This document shows positions 8,464 to 22,459 of a stretch of 48,630 nt of DNA, in pieces. The DNA is from Gammaproteobacteria bacterium (GTDB taxonomy: Bacteria > Pseudomonadota > Gammaproteobacteria > SZUA-229). A program made the translations under genes and the position numbers. Under the pieces are notes generated by a model. The model saw only the letters and a list, made by a program, of their open reading frames with translations, searched no databases and was not told where the DNA came from. Where the stretch lies: assembly GCA_029287435.1 (NCBI GenBank), contig JARFRD010000033.1:1-48630 (forward strand), written 5' to 3'. The number at the start of each line of letters is the position of its first letter. Position 1 is the stretch's first letter.

Positions 8464-8541
8464 AGTTTACGGATTTAATCACATCGTGTTTTACGAGTCA
8501 GTTATAATTCACCCTTGTTTTTTTCCCGAATGTACATACAT

Positions 8542-9000
8542 ATGAAATTACTGTTACCCGGACTTGTCTTATTAGCCACCAGCATGAATACCTACGCAGA
8601 TAATGCGTTAGAAATTGAGGACGCCTGGATTGCAGAAGCTCCACCCGTGAGTAAAGTAATGGCGGCTTACATGGAAATAGAAAACGAAACCAGTGAAGAC
8701 AGGCAGGCCACGTCAATTACATGCAGTAACTTTGAACGCGCAGAATTCCATCGCACTGTTGAACAGGATGGTATGGCGCGCATGCAGCACCAGGAGGCAC
8801 TGACGATACCTGCCCACTCTGAACTCAAACTGGAACCCGGCAGTTACCACATCATGCTGTTCACGCCATCGCAGCGCCTGAAAGCCGGCGATACAACCGA
8901 ATGCACGATGACGTTTGATCATGGCACCAAGTTAGACATTGAGCTGGAAGTGAAAAAGGCGTTTGAAGACCACTCGCATCACGAACATCATCATCACTGA
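8542..9000 (+). CDS. Periplasmic copper chaperone PCu(A)C family protein
   Basis: This is a secreted protein of 152 residues in the PCu(A)C family (DUF461), which delivers Cu(I) to the CuA site of cytochrome oxidase. A signal peptide MKLLLPGLVLLATSMNTYA is cleaved before DNALEIEDAW. 'APPVSKVMAAYMEIEN' is the usual start of the cupredoxin-like fold. The copper site region reads 'FHRTVEQDGMARM' and, 40 residues on, 'GSYHIMLF'. This keeps the downstream H-x-M pair, but the first ligand segment has a histidine without the usual H-x-M methionine. The tail is very His-rich (HSHHEHHHH), possibly an added metal site. The ATG at 8542 is preferred because it places the signal peptide at the N-terminus; an in-frame ATG at 8530 and a TTG at 8515 are less likely. 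Confidence 0.85.
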   Translation: MKLLLPGLVLLATSMNTYADNALEIEDAWIAEAPPVSKVMAAYMEIENETSEDRQATSITCSNFERAEFHRTVEQDGMARMQHQEALTIPAHSELKLEPGSYHIMLFTPSQRLKAGDTTECTMTFDHGTKLDIELEVKKAFEDHSHHEHHHH

Positions 9001-9911: not shown

Positions 9912-11420
9912 CTAGTTCACATTATCCTTTTTTCGCTCTACAGCAACATTTTCTGATTCATCATGCGTTTCAACCACTTTCAGCATTTCAGCCTGTGGTG
10001 ATTCTTCGATAACGCCTGAAGGATTGGTAAACCGATCGTTCATCGTCTGTACAAATTCACTTGCATCCGCTTCCACGGCAGACAGCAGCCGGCGGGTACG
10101 TGATGACCATCCGTTCGGTGTCGGTTGAAACACGCTACGAATCGGCCGCGTATTTCTGAGAAAGGCATTTTTTATACTACCGGCCAGTGTATCCGTCTCC
10201 ATACGTTTTGCCATGCGTTTTGCGACAAAACTGCGAATACTGAAATGTACCGTACCGGCAACCGCTGCAATCAACATTACCTTTAACGATGACATCACTG
10301 CAGCCTCGGTGAAATCAAAAGCGAACAGCCCCCACGGATTGAACCAGTTACTCAGCAATGCCATCGCTGTCATGATCAGGCCAAAGACAATGGCATCACC
10401 AACCAGCACAGTCTTCATCCAGCGACTCATCGCCGCACTCACCTTTGGTACGACAACATTTTCGATATCATTGGCGATGTGGTCCAGTGCACCGATAATT
10501 CGATATGAACGCTCGACTTCCACCTGATGAATGCGCTCATAGATATCAGCGATATCGGTATCACGTTTTGATTCAAAACGCTTGCGAACCGTCTCGTCTT
10601 CGATTGGCACAGCCACTTCTTCGTTGTAAATAGCATAAAAACGACCTGCGGTGAGGCCTTTTTGTGCAATGGCACGCTGCCATGCAGCCACTACCGCCTC
10701 AGGGTTGTCTTCTTTTGCCGCGGTATCAATCTGGTTGAGGATATACAGGAACTTTTCTGAATCATTGCGACTAATCGTATCGCCGACAAGATGATCCAGC
10801 GTATCATGCATCGCACCTGGTTCCGGGTGTCGTGCATCGAAGAACACCAGCACCAGGTCGGAAATATCGAGAATATGGTTGGTAAGCCTCAGGATAGTAT
10901 TGCGCTGTTCATCAGCATCGAACCCCGGGGAGTCAATGATGATCTTGCCACTGACTTTTTCAGAATTCGATGTCTTCATCTGCAGGTAGGCATCAATACG
11001 ACGACCTTCCCCTTCCGACACCTTGTCGATTTCATCACTCATCTGGTAGAAGGGGAAACGTGGATCAGAATCCAGCGCAATACCAGGCAACACCCGGTTC
11101 TCTTCCTGTGATGAATAACAGATGACGGTAAATTTATCGTCGACGGCCTGGTTGCCAGTTAACTGCAGCTTCTGGCCCAGAAAATGATTGATGAATGAAG
11201 ACTTGCCGGCGGAAAAAGTGCCAAGAACGGTAACCAGCGGCCACCATGGAATACGTGTCGCATACGACTCGCTGGTTTTGAGCAAGCCCATGCGATAGGC
11301 AATTCTATCCAGCTTTTTAAAACGAACGACCGCATCCAGCAATAGCGGATTTTCATTTTCCAGATGCGACTCGAGCTTGGCCAGTCGCTCTCTGATTGCT
11401 TTATCGGGTCTGGCCAACAT
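9912..11420 (-). CDS. Dynamin-like membrane GTPase, last gene of the RND/ParA cluster
   Basis: This is a 502-residue GTPase of the dynamin superfamily. The G1 loop is GTFSAGKSS (about residues 68-76), G3 is DSPGFDADEQ (about 164) and G4 is NQID (about 230). 'QAVDDKFTVICYS' probably supplies the switch I region. Two hydrophobic helices follow the GTPase and stalk region, about residues 339-360 and 376-398, so the protein is anchored in the inner membrane with the GTPase in the cytoplasm. Relatives remodel or tether membranes. The second ATG (11420) is preferred because AAGGAG lies 6 nt upstream of it; the first ATG at 11423 is too close. It is 30 bp downstream of the coiled-coil membrane protein gene and is the last of eleven co-directional genes. 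Its specific target is unknown. Confidence 0.82.
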   Translation of the reverse strand: MLARPDKAIRERLAKLESHLENENPLLLDAVVRFKKLDRIAYRMGLLKTSESYATRIPWWPLVTVLGTFSAGKSSFINHFLGQKLQLTGNQAVDDKFTVICYSSQEENRVLPGIALDSDPRFPFYQMSDEIDKVSEGEGRRIDAYLQMKTSNSEKVSGKIIIDSPGFDADEQRNTILRLTNHILDISDLVLVFFDARHPEPGAMHDTLDHLVGDTISRNDSEKFLYILNQIDTAAKEDNPEAVVAAWQRAIAQKGLTAGRFYAIYNEEVAVPIEDETVRKRFESKRDTDIADIYERIHQVEVERSYRIIGALDHIANDIENVVVPKVSAAMSRWMKTVLVGDAIVFGLIMTAMALLSNWFNPWGLFAFDFTEAAVMSSLKVMLIAAVAGTVHFSIRSFVAKRMAKRMETDTLAGSIKNAFLRNTRPIRSVFQPTPNGWSSRTRRLLSAVEADASEFVQTMNDRFTNPSGVIEESPQAEMLKVVETHDESENVAVERKKDNVN

Positions 11421-11450
11421 CATCTGCTCCTTAGGTTGTTACCTGTCAGC

Positions 11451-12473
11451 TTAACTGCCACCAGCAGCTGGTTGCCCGGGCGCCTGTCTCTGTAATTGAG
11501 GCACCGGGGACGGCATAGGCTGTATATACACAGGCTGTCCACTGTTCATTGGCAGTGGCGGCAATGGCGACGAATAGGAATCCGATGTAAACGGCATCAT
11601 ATCGTTCATGAAACCCATGGGGCCGCCCGACAAGGTGCGATTCAAGCCACCCATGTCTCGTTGCATACCATAAACTGAGCGGTTCATATTACTCATGGTC
11701 TGCGTCATATGAGCCATGTTATTACTCATCGGTTTCAGAGCTTCCATCTGGTAGGACATGGTGCGGATCTCACCGGACATGTCTCGCATATCCTGAGACA
11801 TGTCACGCATATCCGAAGTTACCCTTGGGGTTGCATCCGACACGATAGTCGCCATGCGGGTCACACTGTGTGACAGCACCGCGATATCATGCGTCAGGTG
11901 ATAAATCAGGTAGAAACCATAACCGGCGAGCAGAATAAAAGCGAACATGGTCGGGTAGACAACCATTTCCCAACGTCGCGCGCTCTTGTCAAAAGTATCT
12001 GCAAGACGCCCTAGCGCCACATCGGCATCGGCGACATAACCCTGGCTCAGGATCTTTTCTGAAGCCGCTAGCTTGGCCGCTGAAGCTTTCTGTTTTACTT
12101 CTTTGACACCTTCGGGCGTATCAGATCTGCGTGACTTGATGATGTCATCGGCAACGTGCAGTTTCTTGAGCTCATCGATCGCCTTCTTTTTTTCTTCTGC
12201 GGTTGAAGCCCCGGTGATAATGGCATCGAGTGCTTTCTTCTCTTCCTCAACGCTCATCTTTTTCTTGATGATGGTTTCAGCGTCTTTTCTTTCCTGCTCA
12301 GTCAGAGCAGCCGCCATCTTCTCAGGCTTGGGTTTCTTGGCAGCAGCCTTTTTCTTGGGCGCAGCTTTTTTTACAGGCGCAGAAGAAGCCTTTGCAGCCG
12401 GCGTTTCGGCCTTGTCTGCATTGGTACTGGATGTGCTTGTATCAGAAGCATCAGGCTTCTTCTCGTCAGCCAT
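11451..12473 (-). CDS. Single-pass membrane protein with basic histone-like N-tail and Met-rich coiled coil
   Basis: I do not recognise a named family. The 340-residue protein has a Ser/Thr/Asp-rich start and then a Lys/Ala/Pro-rich patch at residues 33-52 resembling AlgP and histone H1 tails. A charged helical region follows (about 55-165, with repeated EEKKKA segments). One transmembrane helix spans about 170-193. After it comes a long helical segment (about 200-290) with repeating M-x-x-M spacing such as 'DMRDMSQDMRDMSGEIRTM'. The last 45 residues are Pro/Gln-rich. With the basic tail inside the cell, the Met-rich coiled coil would be periplasmic. It starts 3 nt after the DUF302 stop without a clear ribosome site, implying translational coupling. 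The basic tail could contact DNA or an acidic partner; this is inference. Confidence 0.75.
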   Translation of the reverse strand: MADEKKPDASDTSTSSTNADKAETPAAKASSAPVKKAAPKKKAAAKKPKPEKMAAALTEQERKDAETIIKKKMSVEEEKKALDAIITGASTAEEKKKAIDELKKLHVADDIIKSRRSDTPEGVKEVKQKASAAKLAASEKILSQGYVADADVALGRLADTFDKSARRWEMVVYPTMFAFILLAGYGFYLIYHLTHDIAVLSHSVTRMATIVSDATPRVTSDMRDMSQDMRDMSGEIRTMSYQMEALKPMSNNMAHMTQTMSNMNRSVYGMQRDMGGLNRTLSGGPMGFMNDMMPFTSDSYSSPLPPLPMNSGQPVYIQPMPSPVPQLQRQAPGQPAAGGS

Positions 12474-12476
12474 ATA

Positions 12477-13064
12477 TTAAAATTCGCCGGTAGCGCCTCT
12501 ATTCATAATATCGAGAATAATTTCTTTAACATTTTCAGCTTCTGCCTTGAGCTCGGGTGGCAGTGGTTTGCCGCCATAAATCATACCGTCCATGTTAAGA
12601 GTATAGAGCCATAATTTGCCTTCTTTATCCTCAATCAGGGTAATTCGGCATGGCAGGTAGCTGGAAAAGGCATCACTGTAGTCCAGCATGCGTGATGCAG
12701 TCAGTGCATTACAAAACATGAATATTTTAACATACCGATATGGCTGCCCGCTCATGGCTTCCACTTCCTTGTACAATGGCATTTCACCAACATTCTTGAA
12801 GTTGTGTTCATTTGCAACAAACTTCATGGTTTCCTCAACATCGGCAGCAGTCATGCCTTCTTCGACAGGTATTTTCCAGATGCTGGCCTCAGCCATGCTC
12901 TGTGTTTCAATCAGTTTTTCACCCATATCGATAAATACATCCATCGATTTGTCTTCAAACTGATCGAGTGAACTCATCATCGGCTGAATTTTTGTGTAGG
13001 CAAAGCCCGCAGCAATAACCGCAACAAGACCAATAATGGCTAATAAATTTCGAATTGCACCCAT
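12477..13064 (-). CDS. DUF302 domain protein with N-terminal membrane anchor
   Basis: This 195-residue protein begins with one hydrophobic helix (about residues 6-24) and continues with a DUF302 fold. The characteristic segment is 'LPCRITLIEDKEGKLWLY', followed by 'MDGMIYGGKPLPPELK' near the C-terminus. DUF302 proteins have a small alpha/beta domain of unknown biochemical function and are frequent in sulfur- and metal-metabolising bacteria. Here the domain would face the periplasm or remain anchored at the inner membrane. AAAGGG lies about 8 nt before the ATG. The gene is coupled to the downstream coiled-coil membrane protein gene (3-nt gap) and follows the TPR gene by 28 bp. A role with the adjacent RND pump is inferred only from the neighbourhood. 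Confidence 0.85.
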   Translation of the reverse strand: MGAIRNLLAIIGLVAVIAAGFAYTKIQPMMSSLDQFEDKSMDVFIDMGEKLIETQSMAEASIWKIPVEEGMTAADVEETMKFVANEHNFKNVGEMPLYKEVEAMSGQPYRYVKIFMFCNALTASRMLDYSDAFSSYLPCRITLIEDKEGKLWLYTLNMDGMIYGGKPLPPELKAEAENVKEIILDIMNRGATGEF

Positions 13065-13092
13065 TCTAATACCCTTTATCTTTTTGTTTTAT

Positions 13093-13866
13093 TTAGATTT
13101 CTGACGGAGGCGAAAGCAGATTTTGAAGCGCCTGTGCTTTTCCCGGATCAAGCCTGCCGAGCATGTGCATCAAGCTGGCAGCACGCGCGCGCTGCCCCTG
13201 TTTAACCAGAATGGCTGCCGCCTCATAATAGGCCGCAGCGGCTTCTTTGCGGTTACCGCTGTTCAGATAAACATTGCCTAACTCGCCGTAAGCATCATAG
13301 TTATTCTCGCTATTGGCGATCACAGCCTTGTAATTATTCACAGAAGCCTCGATATTACCGCGATGAAATTCCTCGCGTGCATCGATCCACAACTCGCGGG
13401 TTGACACTTCAGTACCCGCCGCAGCAGCTGATGGTGCCTGAGCAGGTTCAACCGGTGGTTGAGGCTCACGAGACGCAAATGGCTGCATCGGTGGACGTGT
13501 TTCTGATCCCGGTTGCGGACGTGTCATTGGTTGCGGTTGTACCGGTTGAGTTGGCTGAACCGCCGCAACAGGCTGTTGCAGGGGTTGCTGAGGGGGCTGC
13601 TGGGCAGGTTGCTGGGCTGGCGCAGCAACGTCTACCGCCGTGCTTTCAGCTTCTGCGACGACCTCATCGGCTTCACCGCCTGTAGAAATATCATATTCAT
13701 CGAGAAACTCGCGAACCTCATCGAATTCTTCAGACAAGTAGGCAAGTGCCTTACCAGCCGGGGTATCTTCACCGGTCAGGTTGTCCCAGTAGACATAGGC
13801 ATAGGTCAGCGCCAGAACAAATGCGATGAGAATGATGTTACTTAAAATCCACCGGATCAATTTCAT
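13093..13866 (-). CDS. Membrane-anchored TPR protein with Pro/Gln-rich linker
   Basis: This 257-residue protein has three parts. There is an N-terminal membrane helix at about residues 5-27 and an acidic segment to about 75. A low-complexity Pro/Gln linker occupies about 85-145 (repeated AQQPAQQPPQQP-like stretches). The C-terminal domain of TPR-like helices (about 155-250) includes 'AREEFHRGNIEASVNNYKAV', 'YDAYGELGNVYLNSGNRKEA' and 'YYEAAAILVKQGQRARAA'. TPR domains are protein-docking modules, so it is likely the scaffold linking other products of this cluster at the inner membrane. TGGAGA lies upstream of the ATG. It is separated from the upstream parA-like gene by 71 bp with no evident terminator. 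The binding partner is unknown. Confidence 0.82.
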   Translation of the reverse strand: MKLIRWILSNIILIAFVLALTYAYVYWDNLTGEDTPAGKALAYLSEEFDEVREFLDEYDISTGGEADEVVAEAESTAVDVAAPAQQPAQQPPQQPLQQPVAAVQPTQPVQPQPMTRPQPGSETRPPMQPFASREPQPPVEPAQAPSAAAAGTEVSTRELWIDAREEFHRGNIEASVNNYKAVIANSENNYDAYGELGNVYLNSGNRKEAAAAYYEAAAILVKQGQRARAASLMHMLGRLDPGKAQALQNLLSPPSEI

Positions 13867-13937
13867 AATAATCTCCAGAATCTGTATAACTTGATTAAAC
13901 CATTGTTAGCCATTGCTATCTACTACCATCCATCTGA

Positions 13938-14573
13938 TTAATAAAGCTTTTTTGCGAGATGTTTCATTTCCCACGCCGCTTTACCCATCGGGTCCTGTTC
14001 AAACACGGCCAGCCCTTCGCTGAATGAGCGCCGGTAAGCCGTACGCTGGTATAGCCGGACATCCAGGTGTTCGATGTTGGGCAGCAGCTTGATCGCTTCC
14101 TCCGCTTCGCCCGTTTCCCGGACACCGATATGCGTGTCTGCACGGTTAATGAAGCCAAGAATTTCCGGTTTCTTTTTCTTATCAATATTCGATAAAACTA
14201 TCTTAAGGAATCGCTGTGTTGACCAGATATCAGCCTGGCTGGGTTGTACCGGTATCAAAATTCTTTTTGCCAGTGAAATTGCCTTTTCCAGATCCGGCAT
14301 ATTCGTGGCACTAACATCGGCAATTATCTGTGGTGCTTTTTTACCCTTTTTGGCTTTGCTTAGCGCTTCCAGCTCTTCAATATCATTGGAAACAATTAAC
14401 GGTGGCTCGTAACCATCTTCTTCACGAATCTCAGCGGTATCGCTGAGCGTGGCCTGGGGATCAAGATCGAATACTCGTACGCCTGACTTTTCATGCGCCA
14501 GCCAGACAGCAAGGTTGAAAGCCACTGTGCTCTTACCTGTTCCCCCTTTCAAATTACCGATAACAGTCAACAT
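13938..14573 (-). CDS. ParA/MinD-type positioning ATPase
   Basis: This is a 211-residue P-loop ATPase of the ParA family. It has the deviant Walker A motif KGGTGKST at about residues 9-16 with the signature lysine, and 'GVRVFDLDPQATLSD' as the switch region. Walker B is 'QIIADVSATNMPD', less canonical than the usual D-T/A-P. 'RILIPVQPSQADIWS' and 'ILGFINRADTHI' are typical. It is shorter than plasmid ParA, lacks an N-terminal DNA-binding domain and has no adjacent ParB. This places it with orphan ParA proteins that position cargo such as carboxysomes, chemosensory clusters or flagella. It lies in the middle of an envelope-protein operon, so the cargo may be a product of that operon; this is inference. 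Confidence 0.87.
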   Translation of the reverse strand: MLTVIGNLKGGTGKSTVAFNLAVWLAHEKSGVRVFDLDPQATLSDTAEIREEDGYEPPLIVSNDIEELEALSKAKKGKKAPQIIADVSATNMPDLEKAISLAKRILIPVQPSQADIWSTQRFLKIVLSNIDKKKKPEILGFINRADTHIGVRETGEAEEAIKLLPNIEHLDVRLYQRTAYRRSFSEGLAVFEQDPMGKAAWEMKHLAKKLY

Positions 14574-14588
14574 ATACGTACCCTTGTG

Positions 14589-15374
14589 TTATTTTTTGCT
14601 TCCGCTGTTCACGGACTGTTCTGTTTTGAATTCGGTTAACTGGGAATCGACTGTTTTATAACCATCGGGGACTTCAAATAAACCTGCATGCATGGTTTCT
14701 ACCGTGATATTGCGTAATTCGTCGATACCACCATCATCGTCTTGCTGGCGAACCACGATACCAAGTTCGGCGTCGATCCACTGAATACCGTGCACACTAC
14801 TGCCGTCGGGCGAGAAAACGATCATATCCACTTTTCGGACTTTTCTGCCATTGAATTCCTGGTTATCAAGCAGCTTGACATCAAGCACTGTGCCATCAGG
14901 ATTTTCCTGGCGTAATGGAATCTTGTATTGCTTGTCCAGCCACTGAAATATGTGCATATCACGTCCGCTAACATCCATCGTAATCAGCCATTTCTCAGCC
15001 TGGCGACCTTTCAGCTCAACGGTTTTAAGATGCGTACATTCAGCGCCGGGGAAATTGTCACAGGGATTTTCACTTGTGGGCTGCTGTTCGGTACCAAGCC
15101 TCATCTGCTCCTGATTCATATCACGCTGAACATACAACTTTTTTTCTGTATCCAGCCAGGTGATTTTCTTGTTCCTGGTATCGAAGATTTGAACCATGGG
15201 TACGCCCTGGTCCAGGTATTCAAAACGTACGTTACCGTCAGACCAGTACATTCTGGCATGACTGACATCACTGCCACGCAACTGAACCGCATCGGCAGTG
15301 AATGACACCGCCTGTGTTTTAGAACTAAAGGCGATGGTTAAAAGAATTAGTAATAAATTAAAACGTTTTTTCAC
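14589..15374 (-). CDS. Exported DUF4412-like protein
   Basis: This is a predicted secreted protein of about 261 residues. A signal peptide (KKRFNLLLILLTIAFSSKTQA) precedes a beta-rich domain. 'ARMYWSDGNVRFEYLDQG' followed by 'QIFDTRNKKITWLDTEKK' resembles DUF4412 and LolA-like folds, where repeated strands surround a hydrophobic cavity. A second half repeats the theme ('GRKVRKVDMIVFSPDGSSV'). The cysteine pair at 'NPCDNFPGAECTHLK' could form a disulfide. No ATG fits; the GTG at 15372-15374 is chosen because it begins the signal peptide directly. The open frame extends to 15431 but that extension would mask the signal. It starts 60 bp downstream of the sulfur-globule-like gene. Binding of a lipid or another hydrophobic ligand is conceivable but unproven. 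Confidence 0.68.
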   Translation of the reverse strand: MKKRFNLLLILLTIAFSSKTQAVSFTADAVQLRGSDVSHARMYWSDGNVRFEYLDQGVPMVQIFDTRNKKITWLDTEKKLYVQRDMNQEQMRLGTEQQPTSENPCDNFPGAECTHLKTVELKGRQAEKWLITMDVSGRDMHIFQWLDKQYKIPLRQENPDGTVLDVKLLDNQEFNGRKVRKVDMIVFSPDGSSVHGIQWIDAELGIVVRQQDDDGGIDELRNITVETMHAGLFEVPDGYKTVDSQLTEFKTEQSVNSGSKK

Positions 15375-15434
15375 ACTTAATAAATCCAGATGGCTGGCAG
15401 CTGTAACAGCCGCCAGCCACGGAAACCACACAAC

Positions 15435-15881
15435 TTACTGCGCAGGTGCTGCTGGCGCTGCAGGCGCTGCAGGTGCTGCTGGACGTGGTGGAGGCGCATA
15501 ACCATAAGGCGCATAACGTGGACCACCATAGTAGCCACGACCATCACGCCAGTCACCACGGTAATCACCGTAATAATCGCCGCGGTAATCACCACGACCA
15601 TAGTAGCGCTGGTCACCACGACCACGGCCTTCACCACGACCACGGCCACGACCTGAACCACGACCAGAGAAGTTCATGGAGAAATCGCCATCAACCTCAC
15701 TGTCCAGATCACCATAGGTGTCACCGTAGCCTGAGCCATAACCTGAACCATAGCCTGAACCATCGCCATAACCATATCCGCGACTATCGCCACGACCATA
15801 GCCGTCGTCTCCCCACCATGCACTTGCAGATGTGGAAATGACCAGAGCTGCAGCAGCAGCCATCACTTTCAATGTTTTCAT
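15435..15881 (-). CDS. Exported Gly/Tyr/Arg-rich low-complexity protein, sulfur-globule-protein-like
   Basis: This 148-residue protein has a clear signal peptide, MKTLKVMAAAAALVISTSASA, cleaved before WWGDDGYGRG. The mature part is built of simple repeats: GYGSGYGSGYG, then GRGRGRGEGRGRG, then Asp/Tyr repeats (GDYRGDYYGDYRGD), and a final PAAPAAPAAPAAPA tail. Gly- and Tyr-rich secreted proteins of this kind coat periplasmic sulfur globules in purple sulfur bacteria and relatives, and the composition and signal peptide fit that family. Low complexity makes homology hard to prove; a structural or RNA-like RGG phase-separating protein is an alternative. The ATG at 15881 is preferred over an upstream start at 15920 because AGGTAA precedes it and it begins the signal peptide. 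It lies in the middle of the RND-to-GTPase operon. Confidence 0.55.
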   Translation of the reverse strand: MKTLKVMAAAAALVISTSASAWWGDDGYGRGDSRGYGYGDGSGYGSGYGSGYGDTYGDLDSEVDGDFSMNFSGRGSGRGRGRGEGRGRGDQRYYGRGDYRGDYYGDYRGDWRDGRGYYGGPRYAPYGYAPPPRPAAPAAPAAPAAPAQ

Positions 15882-16010
15882 TGATTTACCTTTTTCACCC
15901 TCTTCGAATTTGTGTGGCATTGAATCGAGGGAGTTTACTCAACACCAACGGGTACCACTGACTGAATCCCAAAAGAACTCATCGCAGTAGATTCTTGTGT
16001 CACGACCGAC

Positions 16011-16541
16011 TTACTCGTCCTGAGTCGGATATGGTGCCATATTTCCATAAGGCATACCCGGCCAATTGCTGCCGCCATACGGCGTCAGCAATGGATCACC
16101 ACCAAAGCCGGGTACGTTGCCGAAATATGGCATACCATAAAACGACGATCCACCCATGCCTGGATAAGTCATATAACCTGGCAAGCCCCCATACGGCGTA
16201 CCCATCATTGGTGTGGAATACATACCGTAGGGAGACACATAACCAGGTTGATAACGCTGTTCCTGTTGCGCAGGTATTTCCTTCTCTTCCTTCTTGCTGT
16301 CCTGCTCCAGGTCTTCCGGTGTAACGTATCGCGGATTCGTTATGTAGGAAGGTGGACCCCGCTGTTGCCACGGATCTGGCAATGCCCAGGGATTGCCACG
16401 CGATTCCGCCAGCCGTTCACCGTTTAGCTCACCAGAAGCAAATGATTCCTCAGCGTAAATGTTATCGTTCAATCCTTCAGAAACTGAATCCTGAATGAAT
16501 ACGATCAAAAACAGAACGACACTTGTTCTCGACCAGTTCAT
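16011..16541 (-). CDS. Exported Pro/Gly/Tyr/Met-rich protein of unknown function
   Basis: The protein has 176 residues and no recognised domain. An N-terminal hydrophobic stretch (NWSRTSVVLFLIVFIQDSVS) looks like a signal peptide. An acidic and polar part extends to about residue 95 and includes 'PEDLEQDSKKEEKEIPAQQE'. The C-terminal 80 residues are a low-complexity matrix of Pro, Gly, Tyr and Met, with repeats like MMGTPYGGLPGYMTYPGMGG. This composition resembles extracellular or globule-coat structural proteins and that of the next gene in the operon. The ATG at 16541 is preferred; a GTG at 16550 is also in frame. Position between two other secreted low-complexity proteins suggests a shared structure. 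No function can be assigned. Confidence 0.65.
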   Translation of the reverse strand: MNWSRTSVVLFLIVFIQDSVSEGLNDNIYAEESFASGELNGERLAESRGNPWALPDPWQQRGPPSYITNPRYVTPEDLEQDSKKEEKEIPAQQEQRYQPGYVSPYGMYSTPMMGTPYGGLPGYMTYPGMGGSSFYGMPYFGNVPGFGGDPLLTPYGGSNWPGMPYGNMAPYPTQDE

Positions 16542-16599
16542 CACAACCACATTCCATCACCCGTTTAACCATTAGCAGGCTAAACCAGAGCGCTCTTTG

Positions 16600-17136
16600 T
16601 TAGTACCCGCGGTATCCATAATACCCGGGTCTGACAGGAGGCGGCCTCTGAACCGGCGGCCTCTGTATTGGTGGTCTCTGTGGATACTGCTGTCTCCACG
16701 CTGGCTCAGGTGGTACTTCCCGTGCACGCATTTGAGCTTCAAGTTGTTCTTCAAGGCCATCAGGCACATAATGGTATTCACCCTCTTCCGGCACCCATCG
16801 TTGAGGCCTGTCACGTCCTTCTGGCCAGGGCATTTCAGGTTTGAACAAAGGTGACTCTGATCGCCCTTTGCGATACTCATCTGCCCGGTCACCTGAGGGG
16901 AAAGCATCAATACGCGACAGGGCTGATGACATGTACGGCCCTGGTGGTGGCGGCGGCATCGTATCTTCTTGCCTGAACCTTTCAGGCCAGACCGGGTATG
17001 CCGGCGGTAGCTGAGCCTGTCGAATTTCACTCGCTTCAGCGCCAGATACAGACATATCAGCTTCAGCTTGTACTCCAGCTGACAATAATATTAGAGACAT
17101 CATAAGGATGGGGGGTGTTTTCTTCATGACGTACAT
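16600..17136 (-). CDS. Exported Pro/Arg-rich protein coupled to the RND pump gene
   Basis: This protein of 178 residues has a signal peptide (KKTPPILMMSLILLSAGVQA). The mature part is rich in Pro, Arg and Glu, with PPPPPGPY near residue 65 and a C-terminus of repeats such as RPPIQRPPVQRPPPVRPG ending in YYGYRGY. No domain is recognised. The ribosome site AGGAG overlaps the stop codon of the RND gene (17147-17149) and lies about 8 nt before the ATG at 17136, so translation is coupled to the pump. Another ATG at 17127 is possible. The Tyr/Gly ending resembles the sulfur-globule-like protein two genes on. An envelope structural or pump-accessory role is a guess. Confidence 0.68.
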   Translation of the reverse strand: MYVMKKTPPILMMSLILLSAGVQAEADMSVSGAEASEIRQAQLPPAYPVWPERFRQEDTMPPPPPGPYMSSALSRIDAFPSGDRADEYRKGRSESPLFKPEMPWPEGRDRPQRWVPEEGEYHYVPDGLEEQLEAQMRAREVPPEPAWRQQYPQRPPIQRPPVQRPPPVRPGYYGYRGY

Positions 17137-17146
17137 CAACTTACTC

Positions 17147-20100
17147 CTATTCATCTTCTATCTTAAGGCGAATGCCGCGTCGACCTTTTGGAGCGGTTTT
17201 ACGGACTGGCGCCTTTTTAACAGGTGCTTTTTCAGGCGTAGATGTTTTGGATTCGGTTTTTTTCGCAGTTGTCTTCTTTGCAGCTGCCTTCTTCGCCGCA
17301 GGCGCAGGTTTTTGCGCAACAAGCTCTGCTGAAGGCACAGGCGCTGTCTCCTGCGCTGCCTTTTTCACCGGTGCTTTTTTAACTTCAGCGGCCTTCTCTG
17401 GTGTGGCCTTCCTGGCCTCTGACTTTTTAGGCTTTTTGGCTTCTGCCTTTTTAGGCTCGGCTTTCCTGGGTACAGCTTTCTTTGGTGTGGCTTTTTTTGG
17501 AGCCGTTTTTTTGGGCTCAGCGGGCCTGTTTTCAGCCGTGGCAGATTCAGCTTTCTTTGTCTTTTTCTTTGGCGCCGCTTTTTCAGTCTTATTCTGTTCA
17601 CTCGCGGCAGGCGTTGAATCCGGCGCTGTTGGCGCAGGCCCTGAAGGCGGAGATGATGGTGGCGTCGATGATGGTGGCGGTGGTTCATCCGACTTGCCGA
17701 ACTTACTCAAAATACCACCGACCAGCATCTTCAGCATTATGAATACGGAACGCAGAATCAGGAATATCCAGCTAAACAGGCTAATAATGCCAGCGTAGAT
17801 ACGCATCCATAACGGCGTCTTGTATTCTTCAACCACATCATCGGCTGCTTCTATAGCCTCGCCTTCGATCCTCTCGAAATCCGGACTCAGCTCTAATTCA
17901 CCAGAATCCATATCGGTTTCGAGGTAAAAACGCTTGCGCAGGCTGATGCAACCTAATGGGATAATTATCACGGCCATCAAAGTCGCAACACCAGCACCGA
18001 ACAGCAGACTCACCGCCATGCCCTGGAAGATCGGATCAAAGATAATCGCGTAGGCACCGGCCATCAGTGTCAGCGATGTAATCAGGATCGGGCGCATACG
18101 AATTTCAGCACCCGCGACGGCTGCTTCACGTACCGGACGACCTTTCGCCACTTCAATTTTCACGAACTCAACAATCAAAATGGACTGGCGCACGATAATC
18201 CCACCGAGCGCGATCATGCCAATCATGGAGGTTGCGGTGAATTCAGCACCCAGCAACCAGTGTCCCGGAACGATACCAATCATGGTGCAAGGTATGGGGG
18301 ACATGATCAGGCCAGCGATTGCAAAATCACGGAACTCCCAGACAATCAGGCCATAAATCAGTACCAGCGCTGCCATGAATGCGATACCCATGTCTCGGAA
18401 CGTCTCGAAAGTAACTGTCCACTCACCCGTCCACTCGAAGCCAGACTGATCATCATTATCCGGTGGGCCAATCAGGTTGAATGGCATACCTTCCATGATC
18501 ACACCATCAGGCGTGGTGTATTCATCGCTAAAGGCTTCAATATTAAACATGCCGTAAATCGGCGCACCAAGGCGGCCTTCCATTTCACCTACCACGTATT
18601 CAATGGCACGCAAATCCTTGTGATAAATGATTGGGTCTTCTTCAACCAGGATGAAATCACCCAGTTCACTCAAAGGCACGGTAATTCCGCTTGAGCTCAT
18701 CACCGGAAGATTGCTCAACTGGTTTACCTGCGAGCGTGTTGCTAATGGCACCTGGATAACGATATAAGTCGGCTCGATAACGGAAGCAAGTTTGACGTCT
18801 CCGAGTTTGTATCCACCCATGGCCATGGCCAGCGTGTTATTGATCGTAGCAACGTTAATGCCACGGCGAGATGCCTTATCGACATTAACTTCGAAACGCC
18901 AGTACTGGTGAGGATCAATCAGATAATTGTCGACATCAACCACGCCTTCGGCCTGCTCAAAGAACTCGGTCATTTTGCGCGCAACTTCACGTCGCGTGTG
19001 TTCATCCGGGCCATGGATTTCAGCAACCACGGTTTGCAGTACCGGTGGCCCCGGTGGCATTTCTACAACAGCGATTCGTGCACCAAATTGCTCAGCAATC
19101 GGCTGTAATATCGAACGAGCTTCTACAGCAATCGCGTGACTACCGCGTTCCCTTTCCTGCTTGTCTTTCAACAATACCAGCAAATCACCTTCCCATGGCT
19201 TACTACGCATGTAGTAATGACGCACCATGCCATTGAAGTTGAACGGCTGCGCAGTACCCGAAAATGACTGAACGGCCTCTACCTCTGGTATTTGTTTGAC
19301 TGCTTCAGCCAGCTCATGAGCCACGTTAGCGGTAACCGGTAAGGCGGTTCCTTCTGGCATATTGATGATGACACTGAACTCAGGCTTGTTATCAAACGGC
19401 AGCATCTTCACTGCTACCCACTGGGTTGGATAGAACAGCAAACAGGTTGCAGCTGTTACGCCAATAACACTGATAAGAAAAAGGATACCCAGCTTTCTGC
19501 TTTCCACCAGTGGCATGATGATTGGCCGGTAAAATTTACCGATAATTTTGTGTGTCCGCTGTTCACGTTTTTCTGCTGCTTCCAGTGCTGCAAGTTTCGG
19601 TCTCACCTTTAACGCAAACCATGGCGTGAATACAAAAGCTGCGATCAGAGAGAAGAACATGGCCGAAGCGCCGAGTACAGGGATCGGACGCATGTATGGC
19701 CCCATCAGGCCACTCACCCAACCCATTGGTAGTAGCGCGGCGATAATGGTAAATGTCGCAAGAATCGTCGGGTTACCGACTTCACGAACCGCGTCGACAG
19801 CATCATTGATGTTCGTTCGCCCTTTTATCAACCAGTGCCGGAATATGTTCTCGACCACCACGGTCGCGTCATCAACAAGAATACCGATGGAGAAAATCAG
19901 TGCGAACAGGCTCACACGGTCGATGGTGTAATCCACCATCATGGCCCACCAGATCGTTAGCAGAATTACGATTGGAATAACCGTGATAACAACGAACGCG
20001 GCACGTACACCCAGACCAATCAGACACAGGATCGATACGATAATACAGGCCTCGAACATGGCCTTTAATAACTCATTTACCTTGTCGTTAGCTGATTTAC

Positions 20101-21208
20101 CGTAATCACGTGTGACATGCAAAAATACATTATCCGGTATCAGTGTACCCTTGAGTTCTTCGACCTTGGCCAGAATATCCCTGGACACGGTCACACCATT
20201 ACTGCCCTCTTTCTTGGCGATGGTAACGGTAACTGCAGGATCACCATTAGCGCGGTTCTCACCCCGGTAAGCGGGTCCGGAATAAAAATAGGAAACCTGG
20301 CTGGCATCCTCGGGGCCATGTGATACTTGAGCGATGTCACGCATGTAAACAGGCGCGCCATTGGCAGTACCGACAACCAGTCTGTTAATCGCATCGGCCG
20401 TTCTCAGGAAGGTGCCGGAATAGACAGTGAACGATGTACTACCGGATTCAACTGCACCCACATTCGCTTCAGAGTTAGCTGTTTTAACTGTCTCGGCAAC
20501 CTGTTGCAAACTGATACCATAGCCGGCGAGACGTTCGGGCAGGACCTCAATACGGATCTGGTCTGCGCGGCCACCTACAACAAAGCCTTTACCGGTATTC
20601 TTGATTTGGCCAAGTTCCTGCAGCAGGTCGTTACCCAGAATGCGCAGGGTACTGTCATCGATCTCACGCGACCACAGGGTTACGCTGACCGTTGGCACAT
20701 CGTCGACCGCGATCGGCTTGATCAGCGGCATCATTACATCGGGCGGTATCTTGTCCCGGTTAGAGCGTATCTTTTCGTGAACTTTTACAATGGAGTCGCC
20801 CAGGTCCTCGCCAACATAGAACTGAACAGCAACCATGGCTTTGCCGCGCTCGGTGCCCGAGTAAACATGACGTACACCCGGAATTTCGGAGAGTAGACGT
20901 TCGAGCGGGTCAGTAACCAGTGACTCAACCTGGTATACAGAAGCACCAGGGTAGGAAATATACAGGTCAATCAATGGCACCGATATCTGTGGATCTTCCT
21001 GGCGAGGGGTGAATATCAGGCCCATCACACCAATCAACAGACAGGCAATCAACAACATCGGGGTTACCGGCGTATTGATGAAGGTTTTTGCTATATTACC
21101 GGCGATACCCAGGTCATGATGTTCACCGGGTGGCATCTCAGTGACCGCCTCTTCGCTTTCCGAAGATGCTTGTGCCTTTTTCTTGTCGTTGTCCTGTTGC
21201 TCTGCCAT
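17147..21208 (-). CDS. RND efflux permease with long lysine-rich cytoplasmic C-terminal extension
   Basis: This 1353-residue inner-membrane pump belongs to the RND superfamily (AcrB/HAE-HME type). The first transmembrane helix is at about residues 47-66. Transmembrane helix 4 carries the proton-relay pair Asp446-Asp447 in 'SIGILVDDATVVVENIF', and the last standard helix ends near 1090. The two periplasmic porter halves occupy about 70-380 and 600-935. Beyond the usual end there is a linker, an additional hydrophobic stretch (about 1132-1165), a Pro/Ser segment (1174-1200), and about 140 residues of Lys/Ala/Pro repeats like AlgP or histone H1 tails. By normal RND topology this tail should be cytoplasmic. 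The membrane fusion protein lies 105 bp upstream; no outer-membrane channel gene is present in the cluster. Substrate is unknown. Confidence 0.9.
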   Translation of the reverse strand: MAEQQDNDKKKAQASSESEEAVTEMPPGEHHDLGIAGNIAKTFINTPVTPMLLIACLLIGVMGLIFTPRQEDPQISVPLIDLYISYPGASVYQVESLVTDPLERLLSEIPGVRHVYSGTERGKAMVAVQFYVGEDLGDSIVKVHEKIRSNRDKIPPDVMMPLIKPIAVDDVPTVSVTLWSREIDDSTLRILGNDLLQELGQIKNTGKGFVVGGRADQIRIEVLPERLAGYGISLQQVAETVKTANSEANVGAVESGSTSFTVYSGTFLRTADAINRLVVGTANGAPVYMRDIAQVSHGPEDASQVSYFYSGPAYRGENRANGDPAVTVTIAKKEGSNGVTVSRDILAKVEELKGTLIPDNVFLHVTRDYGKSANDKVNELLKAMFEACIIVSILCLIGLGVRAAFVVITVIPIVILLTIWWAMMVDYTIDRVSLFALIFSIGILVDDATVVVENIFRHWLIKGRTNINDAVDAVREVGNPTILATFTIIAALLPMGWVSGLMGPYMRPIPVLGASAMFFSLIAAFVFTPWFALKVRPKLAALEAAEKREQRTHKIIGKFYRPIIMPLVESRKLGILFLISVIGVTAATCLLFYPTQWVAVKMLPFDNKPEFSVIINMPEGTALPVTANVAHELAEAVKQIPEVEAVQSFSGTAQPFNFNGMVRHYYMRSKPWEGDLLVLLKDKQERERGSHAIAVEARSILQPIAEQFGARIAVVEMPPGPPVLQTVVAEIHGPDEHTRREVARKMTEFFEQAEGVVDVDNYLIDPHQYWRFEVNVDKASRRGINVATINNTLAMAMGGYKLGDVKLASVIEPTYIVIQVPLATRSQVNQLSNLPVMSSSGITVPLSELGDFILVEEDPIIYHKDLRAIEYVVGEMEGRLGAPIYGMFNIEAFSDEYTTPDGVIMEGMPFNLIGPPDNDDQSGFEWTGEWTVTFETFRDMGIAFMAALVLIYGLIVWEFRDFAIAGLIMSPIPCTMIGIVPGHWLLGAEFTATSMIGMIALGGIIVRQSILIVEFVKIEVAKGRPVREAAVAGAEIRMRPILITSLTLMAGAYAIIFDPIFQGMAVSLLFGAGVATLMAVIIIPLGCISLRKRFYLETDMDSGELELSPDFERIEGEAIEAADDVVEEYKTPLWMRIYAGIISLFSWIFLILRSVFIMLKMLVGGILSKFGKSDEPPPPSSTPPSSPPSGPAPTAPDSTPAASEQNKTEKAAPKKKTKKAESATAENRPAEPKKTAPKKATPKKAVPRKAEPKKAEAKKPKKSEARKATPEKAAEVKKAPVKKAAQETAPVPSAELVAQKPAPAAKKAAAKKTTAKKTESKTSTPEKAPVKKAPVRKTAPKGRRGIRLKIEDE

Positions 21209-21313
21209 TGTTTCTTAATTAACTCTTGCTGGTTTATGTTTTCACTGCCATTTGCAGTGAACACACCCTTGCAACACGCCTTTGGTCGTTATTGCATTTA
21301 AATACCCGGGTAG

Positions 21314-22459
21314 CTACTTAGGTTTATCCCAACTAACCGGAGGACCATCGTTATCCGACTGCGTCAACACGCGTTCACCCGGCTTCAAGCCTGAAAGCAC
21401 AATGACATGATTTGCATCCAGCTCTATACCGGTTCGGATCAAGCGTAATTTTGGAACGCCGTTTTCATCCAGTACTTTTACTGAAGGCAAACTGCCGCGC
21501 TTGGATATGGCCGACTTGGGTATAACAGGCAAGGCACGGGTTGGGGAGTTGACATCCGGCACCATCACCTCTGCGTACATACCAGGGCCACCGGGTACAC
21601 CTTCGGGAAGGTCAAACTTCACGGTAATAGTGTGTTGCCGCTCATCTGCCTTGGGCGCAATCTGGGCAACACGTGCGTTGACACGGGTATTGTTCACATC
21701 AAGGCGTGCTGGCACGACCATGTCCTTGTGCAAGCCAGGAACAAGTCGTGAAGGCACTTCGGTCCTGATACGCAGGAACTTGGAATAGGAGAATTTGATC
21801 AAGGGCTGGCCCGGCTGCACGGTATCACCGACTTCAACCAGCTTGTCGGTAATTACGCCATCGAACGGAGCCAGTGATTTGGCATCGCGAATCTTGGCTT
21901 CAATCTCACGCAACCCGGACTCTGCCTGTTGAATAGCGGCACGCGCATTCTGCACCTGCGAACCCTGGGTTACGAGGTCAGCGTGACGCTCAATACCCTT
22001 GTCACCGCCACTGCCAAACAATCCGTCGCTACCACCACCATCAAAAAAGTTACCAAACATGGCGGGGAACTCCATCCCGGCCATTGGTCTTGGGTTATAA
22101 ACACGCGGATTCCATAGTTCACGCGTGTACTGAACCTGCGCATTTTGCATACTTGTATAGGCTGAGTTCAGTTGCGCTTCAGCTGCGCGCTTCCTGGCCT
22201 GCAACTGTGCATCATCGATTAGAACGAGTTCTGTTCCCGAAGAAAACTCGTCACCTTCTTCACCTGCAATTGACTCCACAACACCCGGTACCTGCGCAGA
22301 TAAAGTGACCTCCTTCAGTGGTATAACTGTACCCCCCAGAATGACATAACCACCGTGAGGCGCGACACCGACAGTTACAACATTATCCGCCTGTGCTGTT
22401 ACCGAAATAAAGCCGAGAAGGAATAAGGAAGATTTAAGAATTTTACTTGTTATAGGCAT
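21314..22459 (-). CDS. Periplasmic membrane fusion protein of the RND pump
   Basis: This 381-residue adaptor has a signal peptide (residues 1-24). A lipoyl-like half follows ('VTLSAQVPGVVESIAGEEGD', 'APFDGVITDKLVEVGDTVQP') that brackets the alpha-hairpin, then a beta-barrel and a membrane-proximal domain (to about 370). It should connect the RND protein to an outer-membrane channel. The alpha-hairpin is interrupted at about residues 116-156 by a Pro/Phe/Gly-rich insert with 'NPRPMAGMEFPAMFGNFF' and a run of glycines, unusual at the tip that normally contacts the channel. It is the first gene of the eleven-gene run, 105 bp before the permease gene. Upstream there is a TATAAT box and three ATGAG motifs. 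Confidence 0.9.
   Translation of the reverse strand: MPITSKILKSSLFLLGFISVTAQADNVVTVGVAPHGGYVILGGTVIPLKEVTLSAQVPGVVESIAGEEGDEFSSGTELVLIDDAQLQARKRAAEAQLNSAYTSMQNAQVQYTRELWNPRVYNPRPMAGMEFPAMFGNFFDGGGSDGLFGSGGDKGIERHADLVTQGSQVQNARAAIQQAESGLREIEAKIRDAKSLAPFDGVITDKLVEVGDTVQPGQPLIKFSYSKFLRIRTEVPSRLVPGLHKDMVVPARLDVNNTRVNARVAQIAPKADERQHTITVKFDLPEGVPGGPGMYAEVMVPDVNSPTRALPVIPKSAISKRGSLPSVKVLDENGVPKLRLIRTGIELDANHVIVLSGLKPGERVLTQSDNDGPPVSWDKPK

Follow-up and report, generated by a model that had tools for sequence, protein, structure and literature searches.

A conserved sulfur-globule gene cluster in Gammaproteobacteria with a ParA ATPase that may take the tail of an RND permease as its partner

The window, meaning the whole 48,630-nucleotide stretch of DNA analysed here, belongs to a draft genome of 2.62 Mb and 77% completeness, in which it is contig C98. 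A sequence-only reading of this DNA had described eleven genes on one strand at positions 9912-22459, and all eleven open reading frames were found over that span on the minus strand. Read 5' to 3', they encode a membrane fusion protein (MFP), an RND permease, two exported low-complexity proteins (LC1 and LC2), a sulfur-globule-like protein (SGP-like), a DUF4412-like exported protein, a ParA ATPase, a TPR protein, a DUF302 protein, a coiled-coil membrane protein and a dynamin-family GTPase. The gaps between them range from -8 to about 105 bp, and a scan for promoters and terminators within the cluster, which is weak evidence, revealed none above shuffled sequence. The cluster is flanked by epmA, 201 bp upstream on the same strand, and on the other side by a convergent psd. 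Adjoining psd, downstream of the cluster, is a gene (8515-9000) for a PCu(A)C copper chaperone whose C-terminus is rich in His. The family labels given in the earlier reading are backed by Pfam and NCBIfam searches for the MFP, RND, ParA, TPR, DUF302 and dynamin genes; the DUF4412 label is reached through orthologs, and the window's own SGP-like copy scores below the profile cut-off.

The MFP, an RND periplasmic adaptor (21314..22459), heads the cluster at most loci and matches TIGR01730 with 158 bits against a cut-off of 94.9. The RND permease (17147..21208), compared here with 55 cluster orthologs, matches NF033617 with 412 bits versus a curated HAE-1 subfamily cut-off of 1250, a score that leaves it outside the multidrug HAE-1 pumps. 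No gene for an outer-membrane channel was found among the cluster genes. Past its last predicted transmembrane (TM) segment, the permease carries an extra cytosolic C-terminal tail of about 201 residues (17150..17752), which in the window is composed of 21% K, 18% A and 15% P with a net charge of +31. Near the end of this tail is the motif RRGIRLK (17162..17182), shared by every one of the 55 RNDs from ParA loci. A 128-aa protein (L062:1921-2304 and about 27 other loci, mostly 55-87% identical) is often encoded directly upstream of the MFP-RND pair, including where the RND lies apart from ParA. It matches no family in Pfam or NCBIfam and has no significant counterpart in the PDB, and the window's genome holds copies of its gene elsewhere (contigs C194 and C160).

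Next to the pump are the exported proteins. LC1 (16600..17154) is Pro-rich with an (M)PPPGPY motif that sits at the matching place in other families, and is possibly an SgpD-like protein; LC2 (16011..16550) has an NPW motif and counterparts in other loci. The Gly/Tyr/Arg-rich SGP-like protein (15435..15920) scores 18.8 bits against the sulfur-globule profile PF17228, below the cut-off of 26.7, which is exceeded by its syntenic orthologs in several families. All three exported types, recognised by PPPGPY, by NPW or by Gly/Arg/Tyr-rich composition, recur across loci. The DUF4412-like protein (14589..15431) has a GTG start; translation probably begins downstream of it, near 15374. The window copy itself does not match the DUF4412 profile PF14371, which is matched by 15 of 18 aligned members; one member of this alignment matches MucB_RseB. 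A structure model built from two sequences of this family had a mean pLDDT of 47 and was set aside rather than taken into a fold search. Elsewhere in the window's own genome, four to five sulfur-globule-like genes form an array of their own (L146, G000:C200:14924-19684).

The ParA ATPase (13938..14573) is ParF-like, with the deviant Walker A sequence KGGTGKST, and its closest solved structures are those of TP228 ParF and 5u1g, a chain deposited as ParA. Its profile matches are CbiA, ParA_partition (below its cut-off) and ParF. Across 20 orthologs the KG-GKST core, D36, D38-P39-Q40 and D86 are invariant, as is expected of a ParA-type ATPase, and conserved arginines (R177, R181 and R182) are compatible with nucleoid binding and a partner-stimulated ATPase. 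No ParB or ParG partner gene was found among the cluster genes or their neighbours. A plasmid origin of this ParA was considered and rejected: every plasmid relative is less than 60% identical, and the best among the matches listed is about 35% identical.

Downstream of ParA are three membrane proteins: the TPR protein (13093..13866, from profile match and topology), the DUF302 protein (12477..13064; PF03625, 43 bits against a cut-off of 23) and the coiled-coil protein (11451..12473), in which a cytosolic K-rich N-tail is followed by one TM segment and a Met-rich periplasmic coil. Because all three have single TM anchors, N-terminal in the TPR and DUF302 proteins, and predicted periplasmic parts, they could join a site at the inner membrane to the periplasm. 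The last gene encodes the dynamin-family GTPase (9912..11423), which matches PF00350 with 58.7 bits against 27. Its G1 (GTFSAGKS), G3 (DSPGFD) and G4 (NQID) motifs are conserved in 15 orthologs and place it in the dynamin superfamily. Dynamin is found in 89 of 370 genomes of the class, 39 of them lacking a Pfam SGP, and was dropped as a core marker of the cluster on account of this wide distribution. Since it is far more widespread than the other cluster genes, dynamin is best regarded as an optional or recruited part, and its role is the weakest part of the proposal made below.

The earlier reading had suggested searching genomes for the co-occurrence and order of these families, and held that a neighbourhood conserved in no related genome would count against a shared system. 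When ParA was searched in 96 relatives and the neighbourhoods were inspected, those genera of the family that have ParA showed the same gene order, and other families a less complete version of it. A class-wide sample of 370 genomes yielded 64 ParA matches. Allowing for local losses, the order MFP, RND, exported proteins, DUF4412, ParA, TPR, DUF302, coiled coil and dynamin is kept in about 28 gammaproteobacterial families, so that the outcome named in the earlier reading as a refutation did not arise. Because it recurs in so many families, the arrangement is, as judged by gene order, far beyond chance. Counting ParA as present at a match of at least 170 bits, 48 genomes have both ParA and a Pfam SGP, 11 have ParA only, 8 have SGP only and 303 have neither (Fisher p ~5e-41, a nominal value, as the genomes are related and the counts are not phylogenetically independent). 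By family, 23 have both, 5 ParA only and 3 SGP only. In the 122 dsrA-positive genomes the numbers are 43 with both, 7 with ParA only, 8 with SGP only and 64 with neither. The presence of dsrA was therefore rejected as the cause of the ParA distribution, many dsrA-positive genomes being without both ParA and SGP.

The exceptions can be inspected individually. Several ParA-only genomes have an SGP-like gene adjoining ParA that is missed by Pfam, and two genomes (G085 and G222) have a minimal pair in which only SGP and ParA stand side by side. In three SGP-positive genomes that lack ParA (G001, G002 and G137), a contig end cuts the cluster at or just after the RND. One of these, G001, is a single-contig genome whose contig begins within the cluster RND (L159, G001:C1:17-3934), and an assembly gap is the probable reason for its lack of ParA. 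Some genomes with globule proteins are without ParA, and ParA is thus not required for globules. By its gene content, order and distribution, the cluster is a sulfur-globule gene cluster. The original suggestion that its products build, load and position one envelope-associated structure is strengthened by the synteny and by the co-occurrence with SGP; it is weakened for dynamin, which ranges far more broadly than the cluster, and its element of joint positioning stays at the level of a proposal.

The comparison of orthologs brought out a feature that was absent from the earlier reading, namely that the RND tail motif tracks ParA. In the RNDs of ParA loci, the last TM segment is followed by a tail of low complexity, mostly rich in Lys, that ends in RRGI(R/K)LK or a close variant. 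The strict pattern matches 52 of the 55, the others being YRGIRLK, TRGIRLK and that of G109, where the motif is in the next frame. Tail length and charge vary, and the motif is the constant part. It occurred in 0 of 2750 shuffled RND tails and in none of the other cluster proteins. The motif is also retained in six genomes where ParA is present and the RND lies elsewhere (G085, G222, G319, G402, G068 and G196). The ParA matches of G162, G272 and G362 were considered as possible paralogs, an explanation countered for G272 and G362, in which a divergent ParA is found together with motif-bearing RNDs. Divergent ParA proteins of 35-42% identity lie away from the cluster in families f81 and f110 (L145, G133:C18; L142; L143), and the motif persists in the RNDs that were read from these two families. 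This suggests that ParA and the motif-bearing RND can be separated in the genome.

The reverse situation is seen where ParA is absent. In family f77 (G129, G247, G343 and G418), the MFP, RND, LC, SGP, DUF4412, TPR, coiled-coil and dynamin genes are kept, DUF4412 directly adjoins TPR, and the RNDs stop 26-41 aa past the last TM segment without the motif. In this family a gene for an MlaC-like lipid-transfer protein lies directly after dynamin (L189:5082-5684; L191:15729-16313). Two further genomes (G340 and G351) have a smaller cluster with a motif-less RND and no ParA, and the ParA-less G186 has a degenerate RND end. Among readable RND ends, 66 have ParA and the motif, 1 has ParA without the motif, none has the motif without ParA and 7 have neither (nominal p 4e-9, from a test designed after the motif was seen and with a small ParA-less set). 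The 66 comprise the 55 ParA-locus RNDs and those of G085, G222, G319, G402, G068, G196, G272, G362, G370, G238 and G133; left out of the count were G372, an unclear case, and also G137 and G002, whose contigs end just past the RND. The single exception is G199, where the best RND match of a ParA-positive genome has a basic tail and no motif. This match may be a paralog, since the G199 cluster contig ends before the RND. In a tree of the RND core, motif-less orthologs fall at no fewer than four places among motif-bearing RNDs, a pattern indicating that ParA and the RND motif have been lost jointly, at least four separate times.

These losses bear on what the cluster does. It is very improbable that this is an ordinary efflux operon beside unrelated genes, with common descent as the sole reason for the preserved neighbourhood. 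Efflux pairs do occur widely, and both dynamin and the separate 128-aa gene are more widely distributed, but the order is kept in about 28 families with differing outer flanks, and the joint losses of ParA and the RND tail largely contradict this explanation. A second possibility is that the ParA partner is the coiled-coil or the TPR membrane protein, with the RND tail serving as a passive linker or nucleoid tether. ParA partners have been described as acting via a positively charged, disordered N-terminus (PMC10241942), a rule that the cytosolic N-tail of the coiled-coil protein, K-rich in the window and its close relatives, would fit. However, this K-rich character is not conserved beyond the close relatives, and both proteins stay in the ParA-less f77, G340 and G351, whereas the RND tail is lost, which makes the idea distinctly unlikely. 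It is also rather unlikely that the role of ParA is to bring the RND export machine to particular envelope sites, with sulfur globules as no more than an indirect correlate. The motif is on the RND, and the RNDs of f33 and G068 lie apart from ParA yet bear it, as such a role would predict; against it, ParA adjoins SGP genes even without the RND (G085 and G222) and tracks SGP among dsrA-positive genomes.

The reading that we favour, and consider reasonably probable, is that the sulfur-globule cluster includes its own ParA system for positioning or partitioning, in which the ParF-like ParA would use the RND tail as its partner. That ParA partitions or spaces extracytoplasmic sulfur-storage inclusions, gripping the RRGIRLK tail of the RND across the inner membrane, is a more specific proposal to which we would give an even chance. 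Both the binding of the RND tail by ParA and the positioning of globules are inferred from sequence comparison. In the proposed mechanism, nucleoid-bound ParA would grip the RRGIRLK end of the RND tail, which would in turn stimulate its ATP turnover, and the resulting ParA gradient could space or share out RND complexes together with the attached periplasmic globule pockets. What the RND and MFP bring to the periplasm would be hydrophobic, either a sulfur species or a lipid, and the exported Pro/Gly/Tyr-rich proteins would coat the globule there. A scaffold for the site, spanning the inner membrane, may be formed by the TPR, DUF302 and coiled-coil proteins, and dynamin might shape the membrane pocket. 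ParB proteins carry a GLGRGL-type ParA-contact motif, and its likeness to RRGIRLK can be taken as a lead only.

To our knowledge, little is understood of how sulfur globules are built, placed and inherited in bacteria, and no description linking sulfur globules with ParA, dynamin or RND was found in the open-access literature. The cluster points to a few genes and a motif of seven residues that can be tested, and its presence can mark the genomes of sulfur oxidisers that are likely to form globules. If the proposal is true, it would extend the ParA family by a new cargo, by a transporter as a partner of a new type and by a partner motif at a C-terminus, and would show how a cytosolic motor could position something in the periplasm.

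Parts of this system can be recognised in several that are already known. Like HAE-1 RND pumps, the cluster has an MFP and an RND permease with a conserved core, including the VDDA segment; unlike them, it has no outer-membrane channel gene, scores well below the curated pump cut-offs and has an RND with an extra tail and RRGIRLK. The SgpA-D proteins of Allochromatium vinosum are likewise exported, repetitive globule proteins. SgpD is abundant, sulfide-induced and found on globules, and its gene adjoins one for a hydrophobic/amphiphilic exporter; globules appear normal without it, and the study draws no connection with ParA, with a permease tail or with a dynamin (PMC10386293). The nearest solved relative of the ParA belongs to TP228 ParF-ParG and is also a small ParA without an N-terminal domain, whereas the cluster ParA is chromosomal, tied to sulfur-globule genes and found with no ParG or ParB gene. 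In the McdA/McdB system, too, genes for parts of an inclusion or organelle accompany that of a ParA-type ATPase, by which the structure is probably positioned, and the partner has a charged, disordered segment. No McdB or carboxysome genes were found in the cluster (McdB, which is poorly conserved, was judged by annotation), and here the cargo would be extracytoplasmic and the candidate partner the C-terminal tail of the RND permease. That tail resembles published ParA partners in being basic and disordered with a conserved end, which lies at the C-terminus of the RND rather than at the N-terminus as in those partners (PMC10241942).
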